Assembly: GCA_029004515.1 (NCBI GenBank)
Contig: JAQVYH010000008.1
Span: forward strand, 1-47,948
Source: Eubacteriales bacterium
Lineage (GTDB): Bacteria > Bacillota > Clostridia > Monoglobales > UMGS1388
DNA: 47,948 nt
Direction of reading: 5' to 3'
The position numbers and the translations under genes were made by a program. The first letter of the stretch is position 1; each line of letters begins with the position of its first letter. Below are positions 28,235-44,258 of the stretch, piece after piece. A model generated the notes under the pieces. The model saw only the letters and a program-made list of their open reading frames with translations. It was not told the origin of the DNA and did no database searches.

Positions 28235-28615
28235 ATGAAACCTACATTAGAGAACAGTATTGGTACAATTTCTATCTCCAACGGTGTTATTGCAGGTATC
28301 TGCGAGGTAGCACTCAAGGATTGCTATGGCGTTGTGGGTGTTGCTACTTCAAATATTAAAGACAGCATCAAGACATATATGTCAGGTGGTGGCAAAAAGA
28401 AGGGTGTTAATATCTCCACAGAAGCTGATGGTATGATTATCGAGATGTATATTGTGGTTAAATATGGTGTTAATCTTCATACCGTTGCCCAGTCTGTTAT
28501 GAGCACAGTTAAGTATAAGGTTGAAGAATTTACAGACTATAAAGTGAAAAAAGTTTCTGTAAATATCGTAGGCATACTGCTTGATGAGGGAGGTAGTGTC
28601 GTTGAAACTGATTGA
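28235..28615 (+). CDS. yloU: Asp23/Gls24 family envelope stress-type protein (YloU-like)
   Basis: A 126-aa protein with the family segments GTISISNGVIAGICEVAL, DGMIIEMYIVVKYGVNL and VKKVSVNIVGI. Its position directly before a DAK2/YloV gene is the conserved yloU-yloV pairing of Firmicutes. The ATG at 28235 is used, with AAGGAG about 12 nt upstream; a GTG at 28223 touches that site and is less likely. It overlaps yloV by 14 nt. Confidence 0.88.
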   Translation: MKPTLENSIGTISISNGVIAGICEVALKDCYGVVGVATSNIKDSIKTYMSGGGKKKGVNISTEADGMIIEMYIVVKYGVNLHTVAQSVMSTVKYKVEEFTDYKVKKVSVNIVGILLDEGGSVVETD

Positions 28616-30236
28616 TAGCGCTCTCTTTCGCAGTATGGTCATTTCAGGTGCGGCTAATCTTTCCAACCAGCGAAAGCTTGTTGATGATTTAAACGTTTTT
28701 CCTGTTCCTGATGGTGATACAGGTACTAATATGAATATGACATTTTCTGCAGCAGCAGATGCCCTTAATAAGAGTGATGCAGCTACTGTTACAGAGATTG
28801 CAGATATAATAGCTAATGCTACAATCCGAGGCGCAAGAGGTAACTCCGGTGTTATACTTTCACAGCTTTTCAGAGGTATTTCCCGTTCGGTTAAGGATAA
28901 GGCTGAGATTAATGCAGAGGACCTTGCAAATGCTTTTGCCCTTGGTTCAGCAACTGCATATAAGGCGGTTATGAAGCCTACCGAAGGTACAATACTTACT
29001 GTTTCTCGTGAGAGTGCCGAGGATGCAATTAATGTGGCAAAGGAAACAGACGATGTTATCGCTGTTATGGACGCACTTGTTAAGGGAGCAAAAGTTTCCC
29101 TTGATAATACCCCTGAGGTTCTCCCTGTCCTTAAGCAGGCGGGCGTTGTAGACTCTGGCGGTATGGGTCTTTATATAATTATTGAGGGATTTCTTCTTGC
29201 TATGCAGGGTAGTCCTGTAGTAAAGCTCGAACAGGAAGCTCCTCAGCAGTCCACATCTTCTGCTGCTTCTGCACAGGCAGTTATAAGCACAGAGGATATT
29301 CAGTTTGCTTATTGTACAGAGTTCCTTATTAATAATCCTAAAAAAAAGGCAAAGAAGTGCAAGGAGGCATTGAGCCGCCTTGGCGATAGCCTTGTTTTTG
29401 TAGAGGATGAAGATATTATTAAGGTTCATGTTCATACAAATAATCCTGGTTTTGCCCTTCAAGAGGCACTTAAGATTGGTGAAATTTCTAATATTAAGAT
29501 TGAGAATATGAAGCTTCAACATAGTGCAATCCTTTTTGAACAGGAGGGTGCACCTGCTAAAGAAGATATTCCACACAAACAATTTGGTATTGTCTCTGTT
29601 GCCACAGGTGAGGGTATTGAAAACCTCTTTACCGAGCTTGGCGTTGACCAGCTTGTTGCAGGTGGACAGAGTATGAATCCCGGTACAGATGATATCTTGG
29701 CAGCTTGTGAGAAAATCAATGCTGATGTTATTTTTGTGCTTCCAAATAATAAGAATATTATTATGGCAGCGCAGCAGGCGGCGGAGATTTCACAAACCGA
29801 GATTATTGTTATCCCAACCAAGAGTATTCCACAAGGAATAACCGCTGTATTAGGCTTCAGCCCTGATATCTCAAAGGAAGACAACGAGGCATCAATGCTT
29901 GAGATGGTTGCAAGCGTTAAGACCTGCTCTGTAACCTTTGCCTCAAGAACAACTAAATTTGACGATCAGGACATCAATGAAGGTGATATCCTTGGTCTTA
30001 CTGAGGGTAAACTCACCATTGTTGGTAGTGATATCAACGTTGTTGCAAAGGACCTTGTTGCCGAGAACACTCCAGAGGATGGACAGGTGATTACGGTTTA
30101 TTATGGCGAAGATGTAACAAAAGAAGATGCACAAGCTCTTTCAGATGAGCTTGAAGAAATATATGGCGACTGTGATGTAGTTTGTCAGTATGGCGGACAG
30201 CCACTTTACTATTACTTCATTGCTATTGAAGGATGA
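28602..30236 (+). CDS. yloV: DAK2 domain protein YloV (FakA-like kinase)
   Basis: A 544-aa protein. The N-terminal DhaL (kinase nucleotide-binding) domain carries FPVPDGDTGTNM and RGARGNSGVILSQLFRG; a middle domain and a C-terminal DegV-related region (SVATGEGIENLF onward) follow. In Staphylococcus the homologue FakA phosphorylates FakB-bound fatty acids; the DegV/FakB partner is not here. TTG 28602 is chosen (MKLIDSALFRSMVISGA, a normal family start) because GGGAGGT lies upstream. Confidence 0.9.
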   Translation: MKLIDSALFRSMVISGAANLSNQRKLVDDLNVFPVPDGDTGTNMNMTFSAAADALNKSDAATVTEIADIIANATIRGARGNSGVILSQLFRGISRSVKDKAEINAEDLANAFALGSATAYKAVMKPTEGTILTVSRESAEDAINVAKETDDVIAVMDALVKGAKVSLDNTPEVLPVLKQAGVVDSGGMGLYIIIEGFLLAMQGSPVVKLEQEAPQQSTSSAASAQAVISTEDIQFAYCTEFLINNPKKKAKKCKEALSRLGDSLVFVEDEDIIKVHVHTNNPGFALQEALKIGEISNIKIENMKLQHSAILFEQEGAPAKEDIPHKQFGIVSVATGEGIENLFTELGVDQLVAGGQSMNPGTDDILAACEKINADVIFVLPNNKNIIMAAQQAAEISQTEIIVIPTKSIPQGITAVLGFSPDISKEDNEASMLEMVASVKTCSVTFASRTTKFDDQDINEGDILGLTEGKLTIVGSDINVVAKDLVAENTPEDGQVITVYYGEDVTKEDAQALSDELEEIYGDCDVVCQYGGQPLYYYFIAIEG

Positions 30237-30242
30237 TATAGA

Positions 30243-30447
30243 GCTAAATTCGCATTCTGCGAGCTAAATGTTCTCAAAGAACGCTAAATTACTTCGTAGC
30301 TAAATGTGCTATGCACGCTAAAAAGGCGAATTTAATTTAGCTTTACAAAGTGAAATTTAGCTATGAAGCACAAGCGGAATAATTTAGCTTTGTGTTTACA
30401 CAAAATTTAGCTAAAGCCAATTCATGACAACGAAGTTGTCAATTAAT
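30243..30447. repeat. Palindrome-spaced repeat array 1 (GCTAAAT / ATTTAGC)
   Basis: GCTAAAT occurs at 30243, 30263, 30283 and 30299, with GCTAAAA at 30317. Between successive copies lie perfect palindromes of different sequence, all with 3-nt loops: TCGCA-TTC-TGCGA, GTTCT-CAA-AGAAC, TAC-TTC-GTA and GTGC-TAT-GCAC. The second half has the inverted repeat ATTTAGC at 30335, 30355, 30382 and 30405, again separated by palindromes or degenerate ones (TTTGTG-TTTA-CACAAA is perfect). The array ends AATTCAT, GACAAC-GAA-GTTGTC, AATTAAT. It fills the yloV-kduI gap and contains no gene. Confidence 0.9.
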
Positions 30448-30473
30448 TATTTATTATAAAGGAGAAAATTATA

Positions 30474-31304
30474 ATGGATGTTAGAAACCCATCAAGTCCA
30501 TTGGACGCAAAACATTATGATACGGAAAGACTCGCAAAAGAGTATCTTATTACAGACCTCTTCGCACCGGGCGAAGTAAGAATGACATACAGCCACTTTG
30601 ATAGAATCATTGCTGGTAGTATCGTTCCAACAGACAAAGCTCTTACAATCGAAGCTGCTGATGCACTTCGTGCAGATTTCTTCCTTCAGAGAAGAGAAAT
30701 GGGCATTATCAATATTGGTGGTGCAGGTAAGATTACAGTTGACGGTACAGTTTATGACCTTAATCCTCGTGATGGTCTTTATATCGGTATGGGCAACAAG
30801 GATATTGTCTTTGAATCACTTGATCCAAAGGACCCAGCAAAGTTCTATATGAACTCTTGCCCGGCTCACAAGACATACCCAACAGTGCATATTGACATTA
30901 CAAAGGCAAAGAAGGTTCCATGTGGCACAGTTGAAGAATGTAACAAGAGAGTTATCAACCAGTACATTCATCCTGAGGTTATGGATTCTTGTCAGCTTTC
31001 AATGGGTCTTACCCAGCTTGAGGTTGGTAGCGTTTGGAACACAATGCCTTGTCATACTCACGAAAGAAGAATGGAAGTATATCTTTACTTCAACATGGAC
31101 CCAGACACATGCGTATTCCATATGATGGGGGAACCAACACAGACAAGACATATTATCATGAGAAATGAGCAGGCAGTTATCTCTCCAAGCTGGTCAATCC
31201 ACAGCGGTTGCGGTACAAAGAACTATACATTTATCTGGGGTATGTGTGGTGAAAACCAGACATTTACAGATATGGATGGTATTAAGATGACTGACCTTAG
31301 ATAA
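30474..31304 (+). CDS. kduI: 5-dehydro-4-deoxy-D-glucuronate isomerase
   Basis: It converts 5-keto-4-deoxyuronate, from unsaturated galacturonide or glucuronide, to 2,5-diketo-3-deoxygluconate. The 276-aa cupin has the zinc-site block MPCHTHERRMEVYLYF and a later SIHSGCG histidine, as in the E. coli enzyme. GGAGAAAATTATA precedes the ATG. It starts the pectin/uronate group: kduI, kduD, then two accessory genes and KDPG aldolase. Confidence 0.96.
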   Translation: MDVRNPSSPLDAKHYDTERLAKEYLITDLFAPGEVRMTYSHFDRIIAGSIVPTDKALTIEAADALRADFFLQRREMGIINIGGAGKITVDGTVYDLNPRDGLYIGMGNKDIVFESLDPKDPAKFYMNSCPAHKTYPTVHIDITKAKKVPCGTVEECNKRVINQYIHPEVMDSCQLSMGLTQLEVGSVWNTMPCHTHERRMEVYLYFNMDPDTCVFHMMGEPTQTRHIIMRNEQAVISPSWSIHSGCGTKNYTFIWGMCGENQTFTDMDGIKMTDLR

Positions 31305-33092: not shown

Positions 33093-33295
33093 ATGAATTG
33101 CATTTGCAATGCATGAATTGAACCCTGCGGTTTCATGAATTGTGTCTGGCGACACATGAATTGCACCCAGTGCATTAATGGAGAAAATCCTGTGGATTTT
33201 CAACCATAATGAATTCCAACGGAATTCAATTCATGGAGCGATAGCGAGAATTCACGGTGATAGCCAATTCATGACAATAATGATTGTCAATTCAT
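33093..33295. repeat. Palindrome-spaced repeat array 2 (ATGAATT / AATTCAT)
   Basis: ATGAATT occurs at 33093, 33113, 33135, 33156 and 33209, and the inverse AATTCAT at 33228, 33266 and 33289. Between them lie GCATT-TGC-AATGC, a bulged GAACC-CTGC-GGTTTC, GTGTC-TGGC-GACAC, GCAC-CCA-GTGC, GAAAATCC-TGT-GGATTTTC, GAATTCC-AAC-GGAATTC and GACAAT-AATG-ATTGTC. A 24-nt stretch at 33231-33254 recurs in array 3 with one difference. The right end runs into the GGAG used as ribosome site by the next gene. Confidence 0.9.
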
Positions 33296-33312: not shown

Positions 33313-33945
33313 ATGTACAAAAGACAACAAAGAGAAATGCTCGCCAAGGATTTGGTGGAGAATCTTAATAGGAATAATTTTGAGGCGTATTATGCCGAGG
33401 ATAGTGAAAAGGCAAAGGCTCTTGTGTTATCTCTTATTCCAAAGGGTGCTACCATTGGTGTAGGAGGCAGTGCAACGCTTAATGAAACAGGTATTATGTC
33501 CGCTATTCAGGATGGAGAGTATCAGTTCATTGATCGCTTCAATCCACCTGAGGGCACGACCATTACAGATGCCCTTAAGGCAGGGCTTACCGCGGATGTG
33601 TTCCTATCATCAACTAATGCTGTCACTCGTGATGGTCAGCTTGTAAATGTTGATGGGACAGGCAATCGCGTGGGGGCTATGCTCTATGGACCGGGCAAGG
33701 TAATCATAGTCCTTGGTACAAATAAGATCGTTGATAATATTGATGATGCTATAAAGCGTATTAAAAATATCGCGGCGCCTATTAATGCGATGCGACTTCA
33801 TAGAAACACTCCTTGTACAAAGACGGGCAGATGTATGGATTGCTCATCACCTGAACGTATTTGTAATATGACTACTATCTATTCCAAGTGCCGAAACAAA
33901 GGTGATGCAGTAGTTGTAGTTATCCCTGAAGAATTGGGATTCTAA
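33313..33945 (+). CDS. LUD domain protein (LutC/YkgG-like)
   Basis: A 210-aa protein of the LUD (lactate utilisation, formerly DUF162) family, recognised by GATIGVGGSATLNETGI, a later FLSSTNAVTRDGQLVNVDGTGNRVGAMLYGP block and KVIIVLGTNKIV. The C-terminus has a cysteine group (TPCTKTGRCMDCSSPERIC) that could bind a metal or Fe-S centre. LUD proteins usually occur with LutA/LutB iron-sulphur subunits, which are absent here. Its place before KDPG aldolase suggests a role in sugar-acid breakdown, but the function is unknown. The GGAG ribosome site lies at the edge of repeat array 2. Confidence 0.85.
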   Translation: MYKRQQREMLAKDLVENLNRNNFEAYYAEDSEKAKALVLSLIPKGATIGVGGSATLNETGIMSAIQDGEYQFIDRFNPPEGTTITDALKAGLTADVFLSSTNAVTRDGQLVNVDGTGNRVGAMLYGPGKVIIVLGTNKIVDNIDDAIKRIKNIAAPINAMRLHRNTPCTKTGRCMDCSSPERICNMTTIYSKCRNKGDAVVVVIPEELGF

Positions 33946-44153: not shown

Positions 44154-44258
44154 ATGAATTGCCTATGGCATGAATTGAAATATGCAATTTCATGGAGTGA
44201 TAGCGAGAATTCATGGGGATTTATCCCCAATTAATGACAACCATTGTTGTCGATTCAT
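44154..44258. repeat. Palindrome-spaced repeat array 3 (ATGAATT / AATTCAT)
   Basis: ATGAATT at 44154 and 44170, AATTCAT at 44208, AATTAAT at 44229 and GATTCAT at 44252 are separated by GCC-TAT-GGC, GAAAT-ATGCA-ATTTC, GGGGA-TTTA-TCCCC and GACAAC-CATT-GTTGTC. Positions 44190-44213 repeat a 24-nt stretch of array 2 with one difference. The gap 43990-44413 holds copy D, this array and the glgA promoter, and no gene. Confidence 0.88.

Follow-up and report, generated by a model that had tools for sequence, protein, structure and literature searches.

Hairpin-spaced arrays of a 7-nt word in Clostridia form a dispersed repeat family with S23/IVP proteins as probable partners

We analysed a 47,948-nt stretch of DNA from an Eubacteriales bacterium (contig JAQVYH010000008.1; hereafter the window), in which an array of the word GCTAAAT proved to be one copy of a dispersed family. 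The family is marked by an architecture of four forward and four inverted words, palindromic hairpins that change from copy to copy, a link to S23/IVP genes, a correspondence between residues of the S23 protein and letters of the word, and insertion sites behind tRNA genes. Judged from these sequence features, the array is probably a copy, itself non-autonomous, of a small repeat element with a 7-nt word that a cognate S23/IVP four-helix-bundle protein recognises. The protein would bind the word as a ring, on a DNA form of the array, and the element may spread selfishly.

The array lies between a YloV-like gene (28581-30236) and kduI (30474-31304) and is laid out as W1-A-W2-B-W3-C-W4-D-centre-W'1-E-W'2-F-W'3-G-W'4, where W is GCTAAAT, W' is ATTTAGC and hairpins stand between the words (Table 1). 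The fourth GCTAAAT word is followed by a hairpin and the centre (GCTAAAAAGGCGAATTTA), then by four ATTTAGC words with hairpins E, F and G. The initial annotation, made from the letters alone, had reported GCTAAAT words that invert to ATTTAGC in the second half, 3-nt loops throughout the first half, and forward and inverted words able to pair into a branched tree, all of which hold. It had also called every interval a perfect palindrome, which is true of A, B, C, D and G, whereas E contains one G.T pair and F is imperfect. The span of 30243-30447 given there was right for the array itself, at 30242-30412, and too long by the segment 30415-30447, which is the last unit of an array of a second family (word ATGAATT). 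The window copy carries no S23/IVP ORF; the S23 gene cognate to GCTAAAT in the same genome is found at C18:8334. A single ATGAATT-family unit was also observed at 44154-44176 of the window.

Table 1 Features of the hairpin arrays in the window (W, forward word; W', inverted word)
Feature	Position	Strand	Basis
Whole GCTAAAT-family hairpin-array element, S23-less copy	30242..30412	+	75-85% identical copies elsewhere; canonical architecture in 66 loci
Word W1, GCTAAAT	30243..30249	+	Sequence, pattern search
Hairpin A, TCGCATTCTGCGA (TCGCA-TTC-TGCGA; perfect, 3-nt loop)	30250..30262	+	5' arm recurs inverted in centre
Word W2, GCTAAAT	30263..30269	+	Sequence, pattern search
Hairpin B, GTTCTCAAAGAAC (GTTCT-CAA-AGAAC; perfect, 3-nt loop)	30270..30282	+	Sequence, alignment with canonical copies
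Word W3, GCTAAAT	30283..30289	+	Sequence, pattern search
Hairpin C, TACTTCGTA (TAC-TTC-GTA; perfect, 3-nt loop)	30290..30298	+	Sequence, alignment with canonical copies
Word W4, GCTAAAT	30299..30305	+	Sequence, pattern search
Hairpin D, GTGCTATGCAC (GTGC-TAT-GCAC; perfect, 3-nt loop)	30306..30316	+	Sequence, alignment with canonical copies
Centre: degenerate fifth word (GCTAAAA, start 30317) and conserved GGCGAATTTA	30317..30334	+	Comparison of copies
Inverted word W'1 (ATTTAGC on +)	30335..30341	-	Sequence
Hairpin E, TTTACAAAGTGAA (one G.T pair)	30342..30354	+	Sequence
Inverted word W'2 (ATTTAGC on +)	30355..30361	-	Sequence
Hairpin F, TATGAAGCACAAGCGGAATA (imperfect as in most copies)	30362..30381	+	Sequence and copies
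Inverted word W'3 (ATTTAGC on +)	30382..30388	-	Sequence
Hairpin G, TTTGTGTTTACACAAA (TTTGTG-TTTA-CACAAA; perfect, 4-nt loop)	30389..30404	+	Sequence and copies
Inverted word W'4 (ATTTAGC on +)	30405..30411	-	Sequence
Left-over last unit of ATGAATT-family array, CAATTCATGACAACGAAGTTGTCAATTAATT	30415..30447	+	Same 32 nt at C6:9278, C13:25213, C71:12272, C8:33262
Second window array, word ATGAATT, same architecture	33093..33295	+	Directly before ORF 33313-33945

The pattern GCTAAATN{9,13}GCTAAAT occurred 19 times in this genome, against 0 for the reversed control. About six full copies of the family are present in this genome, those on C43, C15, C38, C18 and C35 being 75-85% identical to the window array, and 66 canonical copies in Clostridia loci share the common order from W1 A W2 through the centre to G W'4. 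Arrays were found in several families of the same bacterial order, in other orders and in numerous Clostridia MAGs from rumen and hindgut, and they occur in G057, a MAG that is 85% complete, with no S23 gene detected there. Matches to the word pattern also came from Psychrobacter, Paludibacteraceae and others, while matching viral contigs were rejected as unrelated simple repeats. On one 186-kb contig of a single MAG (JAGASR010000034.1; L096, L104, L109, L174, L195), GCTAAAT arrays of up to 10 units occupy many intergenic gaps, which shows that array length and number can explode; in L144 and L164 a longer unrelated palindromic insert splits the arrays, which looks like the insertion of one hairpin repeat into another.

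Across related loci, 336 of 546 intervals between same-direction words were perfect palindromes (202 of them distinct), compared with a mean of 8.2 in shuffled sequence, and since this set still included unrelated loci the true fraction is higher. A single hairpin slot compared across copies held 50 distinct sequences among 59, of which 54 were perfect. The proposal that palindromy, loop size and word are kept while the hairpin sequence varies is thus borne out, and neither of the outcomes named initially as refuting it, a lack of palindromy in relatives or an equal density in shuffled sequence, was obtained. The hairpin-spaced form would be a rare case in which selection or copying maintains palindromy and a word, not sequence. 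In 53 of 58 copies the centre holds a tetramer (GCGA, CCGA or GCAA) that is reverse-complementary to the 5' arm of hairpin A and tracks that arm even in copies whose 3' arm differs; the 5' arm therefore has a second pairing partner, and two mutually exclusive folds are possible.

Clustering of the genes that flank the 66 copies returned one recurrent family, PF05635 (23S_rRNA_IVP; E = 1e-13, 51.8 bits against a curated cut-off of 33.8), whose gene follows 7 of them; no other recurrent gene was seen among these neighbours. A structured leader specific to kduI, one of the functions suggested initially, is unsupported because the same element adjoins dozens of unrelated genes, with the S23/IVP gene as the only recurrent neighbour. 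The suggestion of a hairpin-copying element was right in that the array belongs to a dispersed family; a copying enzyme was not found. Cassette-array and flanking-transposon explanations were also considered and rejected, the genes between neighbouring arrays being ordinary core genes.

In one clade, S23 genes stand behind arrays that share this architecture and differ in the word, which may be GCTAAAT, ATGAATT, A/GTGAAAT, TCGATAT, GCGATAT, ATGATAT, GTGATAT or others. When intervals were called de novo in 134 S23 genes, almost all of them clostridial, 46 had three or more palindromic intervals upstream, compared with 8 of 124 downstream regions, and none of 393 shuffled upstream regions held more than one. 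The proteins with arrays belong to a single starred clade (98), on whose tree the word labels change 20 times against a shuffled mean of 59.9 (0 of 200 shuffles as low); these labels came from a list compiled after looking, with which a blind caller agreed in 54 of 63 cases. The word, as read from sequence, follows the phylogeny of the S23 protein. A viral contig found by protein search (L473) encodes a true S23 behind a GTGAAAT array and fits the residue-word correspondence described below. The S23 protein is known as a homopentamer of four-helix bundles with no known function (PMC4990558), and the family was still functionally uncharacterised in 2024 (PMC11270868). Among the open-access papers searched, none links S23 to heptamer repeats.

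Four residues of the S23 protein vary with four letters of the word. Ser at residue 4 goes with G at word position 1 and Asn/Asp with A; Lys at residue 52 goes with C at position 2 and Gln/Asn with T; Lys/Arg at residue 57 goes with G at position 3 and Thr with T; and Gln at residue 65 goes with A at position 5 and Glu with T. No alignment column predicted positions 1, 3 and 5 more accurately than residues 4, 57 and 65 (97.6-98.8%), and residue 52 ranked second for position 2. When the tree was computed with these four columns left out, none of the 3 to 5 independent pairs was discordant; no single position reached p < 0.05 because each had only 1 to 5 supported independent pairs. Shared ancestry explains the association in part. 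Among 43 further genes, about half of them with a testable word and most from known clades, the held-out predictions were correct for position 1 in 8/13, position 2 in 17/21, position 3 in 19/19 and position 5 in 21/21 cases. In L443, the most informative case and a sister of the GCGATAT proteins, N52, T57 and E65 predict xTTxT and GTTATAT was observed, and the distant lineage L387 is also among the correct predictions. The position 1 prediction fails in the TCGATAT clade, and the position 2 prediction in a sub-clade with Arg49-Glu-Ala-Lys52.

The AlphaFold model of S23 (mean pLDDT 93) contains helices at residues 2-28, 32-51, 57-83 and 89-118. Residue 4 starts helix 1, residue 52 ends helix 2, and residues 57 and 65 lie near the start of helix 3, so the topology of the helices, read from the model, would place all four at one end of the antiparallel bundle. 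The closest structure was 2RLD (BT_0352; 0.7 Å, TM 0.92, five chains), with 2GSC also among the closest, followed by matches to Avd at 1.8-1.9 Å (4DWL and 8UB7). The S23 partner thus scores above the PF05635 cut-off and has the pentameric four-helix-bundle fold, with the oligomeric state taken from the solved relatives.

S23 genes outside the array clade often stand behind another kind of array. Hairpin-free tandem arrays, always of period 7, were found upstream of 29 of 62 such genes, mostly from Clostridia, against 0/310 shuffles and 0/236 windows elsewhere in the same loci; the hairpin-array S23 group had none (0/86). Period-7 arrays also preceded 15 of 15 S23 genes from plasmids of Nostoc, Aulosira, Planktothrix, Euhalothece, Bernardetia and Treponema (Cyanobacteria, Bacteroidota and Spirochaetes) and from two viral contigs, some of these genes being close relatives, compared with 2 of 79 control genes, a small sample made up of the other genes on two of those plasmids. 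The tandem words include GATTAGT, TAATTCG, CAATTCG, GGTCGGA, CAGTTAC and CCCCAATC-type repeats, the last of which we take to be the classic cyanobacterial heptamer. No hairpin-word array went with IVS-type S23 proteins (..VWQKAHEL..), of which 3 of 27 had a period-7 array. In a Paludibacteraceae contig (L140, JAKSKU010000009.1), an S23 gene lies directly behind tandem GCTAAAT, the word of the window in another phylum and without hairpins. On two Nostoc plasmids (L482, L485), S23 genes with heptamer arrays adjoin XisH/XisI genes. XisH/XisI share their distribution with TAACTGA heptamers, and for heptamer repeats no transfer mechanism is evident and S1, Csp or CsrA have been suggested as binders (PMC4679880).

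The copies tend to gather behind tRNA terminators. For ten of the 66 elements the start lies 34-42 nt past a tRNA gene on the same strand, directly behind its terminator (expected 0.4%). In 36 of 66 copies the start of the element is no more than 9 nt away from the end of a hairpin of 7 bp or longer, against 10 of 192 shuffles. Orthologous tRNA-Lys and tRNA-Ser flanks lack the element in sister species (L455, L457, L461, L463, L464, L467, L470), and in two more they carry an element of a different word family (L454, TGAAAT; L459, GCGATAT). No target duplication was seen at the element ends, and neither a transposase nor movement was seen, no transposase recurring among the genes that flank the 66 copies. 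Cognate S23 genes of the ATGAATT family were located at C6:9336 and, broken, at C71:12453. Elements of different word families pile up at one site (L085; G026:C9), where three tandem arrays with three words (TGAAAT, GCTAAAT, ATGAATT) are followed by a TGAAAT array and its cognate S23 gene. In L115, a tandem duplication behind a tRNA gene consists of an array, a broken S23 gene, an array and an intact S23 gene.

That the array works as a structured RNA is possible, if doubtful. It would then be an mRNA leader or 3' UTR bound by S23, in the manner of TRAP or as an autoregulator, and the dispersed copies would be captured leaders that place genes under S23 control. The S23-linked arrays are 5' leaders that lie downstream of the promoter and ahead of the S23 start codon, with the first word typically 160-230 nt upstream of the ATG; a strict test found a sigma70-type -10 box in 18 of 62 (8% in shuffles), and in 48 of 62 copies the gene before the array runs in the same direction (48:14). 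A promoter in every S23-linked copy was considered and rejected on the same 18/62. The single strand of the window array folds better than shuffled sequence as RNA (z = -4.2) and also as DNA (z = -4.6). The structural relative Avd belongs to a ribonucleoprotein of diversity-generating retroelements (8UB7), and rRNA intervening sequences are the classical location of S23 genes (PMC4990558). Against an RNA stands the way in which the hairpins change, which is Watson-Crick on both strands: among 399 distinct hairpins the other pairs on the + strand were 17 G.T and 21 A.C, so that the transcribed strand has no RNA-like excess of G.U, and strand-specific RNA covariation with G.U on that strand was not found. 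Moreover, left-half loops were T(N)1-2C in 136 of 232 hairpins with one exception (136:1) and right-half loops G(N)1-2A in 86 of 167, again with one exception (86:1); loop type flips with word orientation though both halves share one transcript, and loop polarity therefore follows the word. On the strand reading ATTTAGC, the loops are of the GNA/GNNA type, most of them with a closing C-G pair, and loops of this kind give very stable DNA mini-hairpins; G.T exceeds A.C on this strand by 26 to 12 (p 0.03). Many copies also stand behind tRNA terminators without an obvious promoter, and in 29500-31000 Rfam yielded nothing close to the gathering score. On balance we slightly favour a DNA-level form over an RNA leader.

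It is unlikely that the array is a MITE- or REP-like transposon remnant moved by an unrelated transposase with S23 as a passenger. The dispersed intergenic hairpin repeats, inverted halves, empty sites in sister species and preference for tRNA terminators would all suit such an origin, but S23 is the only recurrent gene beside the 66 elements, word and S23 sequence change together, and terminal target duplications are not seen. Very improbable is a purely mutational origin, in which quasi-palindrome template switching, a process that restores perfect palindromes, and 7-nt slippage sustain the array without a binder and S23 genes merely tolerate such upstream DNA, as it leaves the S23 link (46/134; 15/15 against 2/79), the 4+4 architecture and the held-out residue predictions unexplained. 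Heptamers are described as the commonest long simple repeats, with slippage proposed, in the work of Mrazek 2007 as cited in PMC4679880.

The evidence thus favours the protein-binding array among the options listed initially. In the recognition of the word by S23, a ring like the pentamers 2RLD and 2GSC would grip several words together through one end of each bundle. The hairpins would loop out the spacers and bring the words into a 7-nt register, as in plain tandem arrays. Forward and inverted words could instead pair with each other, which would compete with binding and could switch it on or off. The repeats might spread selfishly through S23 and host replication or repair, which is the least supported step. 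As a tentative generalisation, S23/IVP proteins may be dedicated partners of heptanucleotide repeats across bacteria, acting as rings with a residue-to-base code; hairpin spacers might then be an invention of Clostridia that keeps the 7-nt register, and the pair a minimal selfish system without a catalytic gene. A likely partner is offered here both for the poorly understood S23 family and for scattered bacterial 7-letter repeats. If S23 reads the word, two puzzles become testable together, an uncharacterised family with solved structures (PMC11270868) and heptamers without a known binder or transfer (PMC4679880), and the residue code would make this helical scaffold of 115 residues a new programmable fold for reading sequence.

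The array shares features with several known systems. Like the 23S rRNA intervening sequences of Leptospira and Coxiella, it involves the PF05635 family and is a small element that contains complementary sequences, is distributed sporadically and horizontally, and has no known function (PMC4990558, PMC11270868); the arrays here are intergenic and often follow tRNA terminators, whereas intervening sequences lie inside rRNA, and the window element sits between two protein genes and not in rRNA helix 9, 25 or 45. Heptanucleotide tandem repeats (cyanobacterial STRR such as CCCCAAT; TAACTGA in Beggiatoaceae) have the same 7-nt word length, intergenic position and horizontal scatter, and period-7 arrays, CCCCAATC-type included, lie directly upstream of S23 genes, but the units in the window are spaced by hairpins of 9-20 nt and are not contiguous. 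Avd is likewise a pentameric four-helix bundle, whose homology to PF05635 has been discussed (PMC10053308), but it acts with a reverse transcriptase and a template repeat. REP/BIME elements with RAYT are similar in their dispersed intergenic hairpins, paired orientations and linked protein for a short sequence; the probable partner here is S23, where RAYT is a Y1 transposase, and the words separate many different hairpins. CRISPR, which had been excluded from the start and rightly so, also combines a short constant word with variable intervals, and some cas loci are reported to contain IVP genes (PMC3936711); its repeats are of about 20-50 nt with non-palindromic spacers, whereas the array in the window has a 7-nt word, palindromic intervals and an inversion of the word midway.
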